From NCBI GenBank assembly GCA_001270045.2, contig DF970690.1, forward strand, positions 158,369 to 222,368: a DNA stretch of 64,000 nucleotides, read 5' to 3'. The notes under the pieces are model-generated. The model saw only the letters and a program-made list of their open reading frames with translations. It was not told the origin of the DNA and searched no databases. A program made the translations under genes and the position numbers. Below are positions 18,236-20,845 of this stretch, piece after piece. The DNA is from Bacteroidales bacterium 6E (GTDB taxonomy: Bacteria > Bacteroidota > Bacteroidia > Bacteroidales > Prolixibacteraceae). How positions within the stretch are numbered: position 1 is the stretch's first letter; every line of letters starts with the position of its first letter.

Positions 18236-19867
18236 ATGGCCCGATCTTATTTTCTTATATACCTTCTGATTTTATTGTTGATCTCCAAGGCAACAATATC
18301 CCAGAATTACCGTCAGGTTGATCCTCCCAAAGTAGTAATTGGAATCATCGTGGAAAATATGCGACCTGATTATGTTGACCGATATTGGGATAAATTTGGA
18401 GCTGATGGTTTTCGCAAACTTTATTCAAAAGGAGCCGTGATTTCAAATATGAAAATTACCCAACATGTTCAGAATTACGCTTCAGGAACGGCAACCCTTT
18501 TTACCGGTGTACCTCCCTCTGTCCATGGTATTGTTGATAATGCATGGTATGACAGACTTCGGTCAAAGGTTACCAATTGTATAACCGATGATTACTATTT
18601 CACTGTAGGTGCCGATTCAAAAAGTGGCAATGTTTCACCTCGCAAATTAATGGCTAACACAGTGGGTGATAACCTGAAGGTTTTTTCAATGAATAAATCC
18701 AAGGTTTTCAGTATAGCCATGAATCCTGAATCAGCAATATTCGCAGCTGGTCATTCGGCGGATGCTGCCTGGTGGTTTGATACAGAATCTGGCCGGATGG
18801 TCTCAGGATCCTTTTATGTCAGTACCTTTCCCGAATGGGCAAGAGATTACAATATGGTGAGCCAGGGTGAAAAATACTCCGGTAGAAACTGGGTGACATT
18901 GTTCCCCGAAACCCAATATTCAGAAAGTCTTCCCGACAATTATTATCTGGAAAAAGGATATGGCGAAAAAAGTAACACCTTCCCGCATTCCATGAATAGA
19001 CTGGTTAAAGCAGCGGGATCATTTCAACCCATAAAGACATCTCCATTCGCGAATACCATAATTAAGGAATTTACTAAAGCTCTTCTCGACAATGAACCTG
19101 TAGGTCAAGATGATATACCCGATCTTGTCACAGTTTTCTTTTCTTCAATGGACTATGCACATGGAAGTTTTGGTCCGGCATCCCTGGAGATGCAGGACAC
19201 CTATTTACGGCTAGATCAGGAAATCGCCGAATTAATTACTTATGCTGAAAACAAATATGGCTCAGACAAAATTCTGATTTATCTTACAGCCAATACATCT
19301 GCATCGTACCCTGCAGAATACCTAAAGCAGGAATTCAACATGCATGCAGGTGAGTTTCAACCCGAAAGTGCCTTGGCATTGCTAAATTCATTGCTAAATA
19401 TTACTTACGGTGAAGAGAAGTGGATCGAAAATATTACAGGACATCAAATCTATCTCGACCATAAACTAATCAAGGAAAAAAACATTGATCTTATTGAAAT
19501 GAGGAACTTGGTTGCCGACTTCATCACCCAGTTTGAAGCGGTAAAAGTTGCTCTTCCCTCTCACATTCTTGATCAGGGAGGATCAGACAATGGCTCATTG
19601 ACAGGCTTATATAAAACCTATATGATTAACCGGTCAGGAGATATCCTGTATGTTTTAAACGAAGGTTGGATTCCAACCTATAAATATGACCGAGTTAATT
19701 ATACCGACCAGATTCATATTCCGGTAGTGTTCTATGGGGCGAGGGTTAAACAGACATTGATTAATGAACCCTATGAGGCAACAGATATTGCACCTACTCT
19801 TTCAGAGATTCTTCATATCCCTGTCCCCGATAAAAGCAGAGGGAAAATAATCACCGGGATTCAATGA
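18236..19867 (+). CDS. PafA-like alkaline-phosphatase-fold protein, predicted pseudoenzyme
   Basis: 543 residues with a signal peptide; aligns along its whole length with PafA-type alkaline phosphatases (for example MRPDYVDRYW, GVPPSVHGI, DTYLRLDQEIAE, PYEATDIAPTLSEIL). Judged against the Elizabethkingia PafA sequence from memory, most catalytic positions are changed: Glu40 for metal ligand Asp38, Tyr81 for nucleophile Thr79, Asn163 and Glu165 for Lys162 and Arg164, Gly310 for His309, and Asn353-Thr354 for Asp352-His353. Asn102, Asp306 and His494 are kept. Canonical phosphatase activity is therefore unlikely. The open reading frame is intact, which suggests a retained non-catalytic role. Its last 66 bp overlap the convergent DUF4249 gene. 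Confidence 0.85.
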   Translation: MARSYFLIYLLILLLISKATISQNYRQVDPPKVVIGIIVENMRPDYVDRYWDKFGADGFRKLYSKGAVISNMKITQHVQNYASGTATLFTGVPPSVHGIVDNAWYDRLRSKVTNCITDDYYFTVGADSKSGNVSPRKLMANTVGDNLKVFSMNKSKVFSIAMNPESAIFAAGHSADAAWWFDTESGRMVSGSFYVSTFPEWARDYNMVSQGEKYSGRNWVTLFPETQYSESLPDNYYLEKGYGEKSNTFPHSMNRLVKAAGSFQPIKTSPFANTIIKEFTKALLDNEPVGQDDIPDLVTVFFSSMDYAHGSFGPASLEMQDTYLRLDQEIAELITYAENKYGSDKILIYLTANTSASYPAEYLKQEFNMHAGEFQPESALALLNSLLNITYGEEKWIENITGHQIYLDHKLIKEKNIDLIEMRNLVADFITQFEAVKVALPSHILDQGGSDNGSLTGLYKTYMINRSGDILYVLNEGWIPTYKYDRVNYTDQIHIPVVFYGARVKQTLINEPYEATDIAPTLSEILHIPVPDKSRGKIITGIQ

Positions 19868-20845
19868 TCCGGGAAGTTCGGCGCCAGGAAAAAGTGAGTC
19901 GATTAATGCACGATTAATATATACGATCGAATCCACAGAAAAACTGTATCCCCCCAGGATACCGGCACCGTTTTTCACATTGGTATATATCTGAACCGGC
20001 TCATTGAAAGGATTTGAAGCGGTTTGGCTTTGCTGCATAACCGTGCGCAAATAATAAAAGTAGTCTTTTGATATTGATTGCAAATAAATCTTTCGATTTA
20101 CACCCAATACACTGTCTGTCCTAAAATAATCCATCTCCAATTCCAGACGCATATCCTCTCCCTCAATATGCCTATCGCTGAATATATTAAACTGGTTTCC
20201 TGCCCAATCATGGAATTTGTCAGACTTCCCATAATACCCCATACCGCGTAATAACCAATTATTGTCTGAATAAACCCGGGCAGGAATTCTCAGAATTCTG
20301 ATTCGGATATCCTTGTTGGCAGCCATATAGGGAACAAAGACTTCATCAACCAATTCAAGACGGTAATAATTATCTGTGCCCAAAGGCTCTGCGAATTGGA
20401 CGGTAACTATGATCCTTCTCTCTCCCTGGGTAAATCGATAGGTTGTATCCAAGCGAATAATTTGCACAGGTTGGGGTACATTGGTTTCACTTGAGGCTTC
20501 CTCATGAGTTCCGTCACTTATACTAATTGAATACGTATTCCCAGCTGATATATCAAATTGGTCACTGTAATATCTTCCCTTTCCCAGATGTGTCAAATCA
20601 CCCAAATAAGTATTTCCTTTGAAAAAGGCTACCGTTTTACCCGTCAAATGAACGAATCCCAGGGTATCAAAACGGTTTATTGACCTGGATAGTCGAATAT
20701 CAACCGCCTTATCAGGTGAAAGAATTCCGGAGACCACAATGACCTTGTTGACAGAATCCTCATCATATTCCAGTATCTCCTTACAAGCAATTGCAAGGTA
20801 AAACAGAGCAACAATTAAACTAATATATTTGATTCCCTTCATCAT
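19802..20845 (-). CDS. DUF4249 lipoprotein, partner of TonB receptor
   Basis: 347-residue lipoprotein; the lipobox is LAIAC at the end of a clear signal peptide. It begins with a beta-rich domain (VIVVSGILSPDKAVDIRLSRS, typical of DUF4249) and ends the conserved part with NPFNEPVQIYTNVKNGAGILGGY. The final 35 or so residues are an extension encoded partly inside the overlap with the phosphatase-like gene. DUF4249 genes regularly follow a TonB-dependent receptor, as here with a 1-bp overlap, and are taken to be surface partners in uptake. The ligand is unknown. Confidence 0.85.
   Translation of the reverse strand: MMKGIKYISLIVALFYLAIACKEILEYDEDSVNKVIVVSGILSPDKAVDIRLSRSINRFDTLGFVHLTGKTVAFFKGNTYLGDLTHLGKGRYYSDQFDISAGNTYSISISDGTHEEASSETNVPQPVQIIRLDTTYRFTQGERRIIVTVQFAEPLGTDNYYRLELVDEVFVPYMAANKDIRIRILRIPARVYSDNNWLLRGMGYYGKSDKFHDWAGNQFNIFSDRHIEGEDMRLELEMDYFRTDSVLGVNRKIYLQSISKDYFYYLRTVMQQSQTASNPFNEPVQIYTNVKNGAGILGGYSFSVDSIVYINRALIDSLFPGAELPGSLNPGDYFPSAFIGDRDMKNL

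Follow-up and report, generated by a model that had tools for sequence, protein, structure and literature searches.

We identified the gene at positions 18236..19867 (+ strand) of the window, the 64,000-nucleotide stretch of Bacteroidales DNA analyzed here, as encoding a PafA-fold pseudophosphatase, and we propose with moderate confidence that its product is an exported, catalytically dead binding protein of the periplasm, most likely involved in lipoprotein maturation or export. In the proposed mechanism, a Bacteroidales-wide lineage bearing a conserved module at residues 370–440 would have split from true PafA, and its metal and phosphate site would have been lost, probably more than once. 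The periplasmic protein would then bind a protein or ligand through this module without hydrolysis, in the setting of lipoprotein maturation or export.

The gene was confirmed to be full length, as the original prediction had it, with an open reading frame running from ATG to stop and encoding 543 aa. A phmmer search matched the protein to PafA (PDB 5TJ3) over its whole length (residues 25–541, E = 2.6e-88), and the Pfam match was Phosphodiest. The score against the curated NCBIfam PafA family (NF042991) was 464.2 bits, below the cut-off of 650. An AlphaFold model built from a 43-row alignment (mean pLDDT 91.9) superposed on 5TJ3 with a Z score of 56.1 (2.4 Å over 511 residues), giving a predicted PafA fold within the alkaline phosphatase superfamily. 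The window protein therefore shares full-length homology, predicted fold and predicted export with PafA, the phosphate-irrepressible alkaline phosphatase, but differs from it in its replaced catalytic residues, its lower family score and the conservation of the 370–440 module. The next structural matches were PhoK (3q3q, Z 39.7) and the ENPPs (Z about 27). PhoK/SPAP of Sphingomonas (3Q3Q, 5XWK; Z about 39) belongs to the same superfamily but is an active alkaline phosphatase, with 20% identity to the window protein. A viral fold search with the full-length protein returned generic superfamily matches only.

Codons 1–22 (18236..18301, + strand) encode a predicted signal peptide, with cleavage before Gln23 at the putative site ATIS/QNY. 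The good signal peptide originally claimed is plausible from the sequence, and a similar A-x-A/Q-like motif recurs in 44 of 51 homologues. The good promoter claimed alongside it was not recovered, as a scan for the Bacteroidota-type consensus gave no match upstream of the gene; a lone TAnnTTTG-like TATTTTTG is located at about 18208. The upstream neighbors encode CrcB (PF02537; 17281..17661, + strand) and, between it and the PafA-like gene, a DUF190 protein (PF02641; 17740..18126, + strand), both assigned by family match. A DUF4249/TonB receptor pair and hydrogenase genes are convergent to the PafA-like gene, and the convergent DUF4249 gene (19802–20845) overlaps its 3' end by 66 bases. An RNA element or riboswitch near crcB was considered and rejected, as an Rfam search of the window gave no match.

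We take the PafA active site to comprise ten residues, D38, T79, N100, K162, R164, D305, H309, D352, H353 and H486, with D38, D305, H309, D352, H353 and H486 presumed to be the zinc ligands and T79 the nucleophile. PafA numbering was anchored at T79, after which all ten expected residues matched, and the title of entry 5TOO confirms T79, N100, K162 and R164. Site-by-site alignment revealed that eight of the ten are replaced in the window protein (coordinates all on the + strand): Glu40 stands in place of zinc ligand Asp38 (18353..18355), Tyr81 in place of the nucleophile Thr79 (18476..18478), Asn163 and Glu165 in place of Lys162 and Arg164 (18722..18730), Gly310 in place of zinc ligand His309, Asn353-Thr354 in place of zinc ligands Asp352-His353 (19292..19297), and Asp485 in place of zinc ligand His486 (19688..19690). 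The only two left are Asp306, equivalent to Asp305 (19151..19165 for the stretch from Asp306 to Gly310), and Asn102, equivalent to Asn100 (18539..18541), which is variable among relatives and not retained in the nearest ones. All three histidine ligands are gone, and a His sits one position before Gly310. The substitutions that the original prediction had listed, at the sites of D38, T79, K162, R164, H309, D352 and H353, were all correct by this alignment, as was the retention of Asn102 and Asp306. Its statement that His494 remains was mistaken: this residue belongs to the HIP motif, as its His, and corresponds to PafA His495, which is no zinc ligand. The true ligand H486 lies in TTHSVW, and since it is lost as well, the site is more degraded than was first stated.

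To place this loss in context, homologues were aligned across the order. Of the 37 genomes in the window's family, 35 have the gene, almost always once, and the site is lost in all 35 aligned copies. The family profile matched 153 of the 245 genomes sampled from the order, a few of these matches being true PafA. Among 142 aligned homologues, 40 have 9–10 catalytic residues and 102 have 0–5 (the dead set), with none having 6–8; sampled rows from outside the order all have 10/10. Judged by these residues, a dead PafA-like lineage spans the order Bacteroidales, usually as a single copy. In true PafA the ten columns vary hardly or not at all, whereas most of them are at least as variable as the average column in the dead set; chance is not an issue here, because the same columns that are (nearly) invariant in true PafA are scattered across 102 relatives. 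In one relative (G020, C54:53927-55571), two overlapping frames together make up a second PafA-like copy, possibly a disrupted paralogue. We also considered whether the protein is a cargo or component of the type IX secretion system (T9SS), and rejected this, as the PorV family is above cut-off in 236 of 245 genomes, near-universal in the order, and the PafA-like gene also occurs in genomes with weak PorV-family matches (e.g. families f26 and f142).

In a phylogenetic tree computed after removal of the ten catalytic columns, the true PafA proteins of the whole phylum grouped together, and four intact copies (L104, L105, L108 and L114) nested inside the dead lineage. An AU test rejected a single clade of all intact rows (p-AU 0.029, 41.8 log units worse), which we regard as moderate evidence for repeated loss; with a p value of only 0.029 and four intact rows, the losses may be fewer than they appear if the tree or alignment errs. 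Gene order was also compared, with most neighbor names read from the sequence rather than from a family search. The intact copy L104 (locus L171) precedes a gene run of clusters c22 and c23 followed by GGGPS-, GldD-, GldE- and SSB-like genes, and the same downstream run was found, in whole or in part, at the dead copies L065, L154 and L182. CrcB likewise precedes both the intact copy L172 (G341) and several dead copies (L175, L183, L186 and that of the window). The simplest reading suggested by these sequences is that catalysis was lost repeatedly from an active ancestor, because regaining all ten residues is unlikely.

Conservation in the dead set is concentrated in an alpha/beta module at codons 370–440 (19343..19555, + strand), identified by column entropy and a residue signature, which true PafA conserves less strongly. 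At matched sample sizes, columns of the dead set are on average less conserved than those of true PafA (mean entropy difference −0.38 bits), residues 360–450 being the exception. Of the 30 columns whose conservation in the dead set most exceeds that in true PafA, 22 fall within 370–440 (hypergeometric 1e-14, a guide only, because columns are non-independent and the region was picked after seeing the data). A 17-residue module signature, derived with the four nested intact copies excluded, gave medians of 13.5–15 in the dead groups and 5 in true PafA, and is present at 17/17 in each of those four copies. Three true PafA rows (L073, L076 and L043) carry 12–14 of the 17 residues, so the lineage may have kept the module instead of acquiring it, and the signature may be partly ancestral. 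The module corresponds to an alpha/beta subdomain matching PafA 372–447; in sequence and fold searches PafA itself was the sole match above noise, and a Pfam search of the window's module gave no match, so a named-domain identity was rejected. The binding protein suggested in the original prediction is plausible: the part most strongly kept is this module, away from the catalytic columns. Binding rather than catalysis is probable, since the dead protein has been kept and is well preserved across the order, often beside Lnb and in one case fused to it.

The genomic partner of the lineage is Lnb of Bacteroidota (NF051878; PF13387 + PF25221), a lipoprotein N-acyltransferase identified in Bacteroides in 2024, according to a citation in PMC13103446. 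Judged by coordinates, at least 39 genomes from 15 families have lnb immediately before the PafA-like gene, the neighbor being identified by its Lnb_N and 5TMH_Lnb domains and by NF051878. The two genes overlap by 4 bases in several loci, secA lies downstream of the PafA-like gene in the seven loci first examined, and in one genome (G323, L190:3137-5911) a single open frame of 924 aa encodes Lnb fused to a dead PafA-like protein. The two proteins are unrelated, Lnb being an enzyme and the PafA-like protein its neighbor. Because the gene follows, overlaps or is fused to lnb, and precedes secA, in much of the lineage, lipoprotein maturation or export is its most likely setting. Across the 245 genomes, 98 contain Lnb only, 112 Lnt only, 27 both and 8 neither, and these two unrelated N-acyltransferases are nearly mutually exclusive across Bacteroidales. 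The PafA-like gene is present in 93% of Lnb-only, 74% of Lnb+Lnt and 36% of Lnt-only genomes (raw counts, which include shared ancestry); its absence from 7 of the 98 Lnb-only genomes means that it is not strictly needed. In family f11, lnt lies just upstream of the PafA-like gene, and the two are within 18 kb of each other in 9 of the 59 genomes containing both (uncorrected for shared ancestry).

The window's gene has no such neighbor. Its genome contains Lnt, and a search for Lnb there and in two other near relatives found none. Against a lipoprotein role, the gene lies beside crcB-DUF190, the TonB receptor pair and hydrogenase genes, none of which is for lipoproteins. The link to lipoproteins is therefore carried over from relatives, which is the weakest step of the argument. 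Phosphatase inactivity, action through binding and the lipoprotein role are what we infer from these comparisons, above all for the window's genome. Tentatively, the protein could be a non-catalytic, PafA-derived subunit of lipoprotein N-acylation, serving Lnb, or Lnt where there is no Lnb, with its second binding module fixed while the protein was still active and several parallel losses of the site following. A possible but somewhat doubtful alternative is a periplasmic protein with a general binding or scaffolding function in the envelope and no special tie to N-acylation, the lnb-secA operon being a later and local arrangement. Such a protein would account for the retention of the gene in 40 of the 112 Lnt-only genomes, that of the window among them, and for neighbors that vary by branch (GldD/GldE/SSB, YchF, CrcB and hydrogenase), but not readily for two unrelated N-acyltransferase genes directly upstream, in 15 families for Lnb and in f11 for Lnt, nor for the overlapping genes and the Lnb fusion.

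Another alternative, which we consider unlikely, is that the old site was rebuilt into a different working site, in which Glu40, Asn163 and Asp306 could hold another metal or substrate. The absence of known residues is no proof of inactivity, and within the window's family Glu40 (33/35 rows), Asn163 (34/35) and Asp306 (33/35) are kept while the other catalytic columns vary, so that a changed site is conceivable. Outside that family, however, the three positions are not fixed, and the nucleophile column is scattered among Tyr, Pro, Ser, Cys, Ile and Gln. Together with the missing histidine ligands, and with the strongest gain in conservation lying elsewhere, at 370–440, this argues against a rebuilt site.

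The further suggestion of the original prediction, that the protein regulates an active PafA paralogue, appears very improbable, and so does a decoy role. Dead and live copies do occur together in a few genomes of the order (G038, G340, G395 and G483), but the majority of dead-copy genomes show a single match, and a search of the window's genome (99.97% complete) at E 0.01 recovered no further PafA homologue, which leaves an active paralogue without support there.

That the gene is a decaying pseudogene is scarcely credible, for although the catalytic residues are lost, it is carried by 35 of 37 family genomes with full-length frames open in nearly all relatives, its module is strongly conserved, and its pN/pS is about 0.1. 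Comparison of the window's gene with its nearest relative gave pN 0.069 and pS 0.72, in keeping with the original prediction that decay is unlikely, and other pairs gave dN/dS of about 0.03–0.13 where dS was unsaturated; because dS is near saturation, these ratios are rough, but they exclude decay. The gene is under purifying selection. With the site missing family-wide, the predicted fold kept and a signal peptide predicted, the secreted pseudoenzyme proposed at the outset is well supported, insofar as inactivity can be judged from sequence.

A literature search, mostly of papers outside subscription, found no description of PafA pseudophosphatases or of a dead lineage. An earlier PafA survey filtered on key residues and kept 423 of 468 isolate ORFs (PMC8812569); the ORFs that it dropped may include members of the dead lineage, which were discarded rather than described as a lineage. 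Another survey, which may have counted dead copies too, gave a PafA frequency of 78.7% among Bacteroidetes (PMC8115612). Homology-based PafA counts in Bacteroidales may thus take in dead proteins, which matters for surveys of phosphorus cycling. How lipoproteins mature in Bacteroidota is known only in part, and one genome has a PafA-like protein fused to Lnb. Collectively, these observations place what seemed a single odd gene in a pseudophosphatase lineage that spans the order and has a testable partner.
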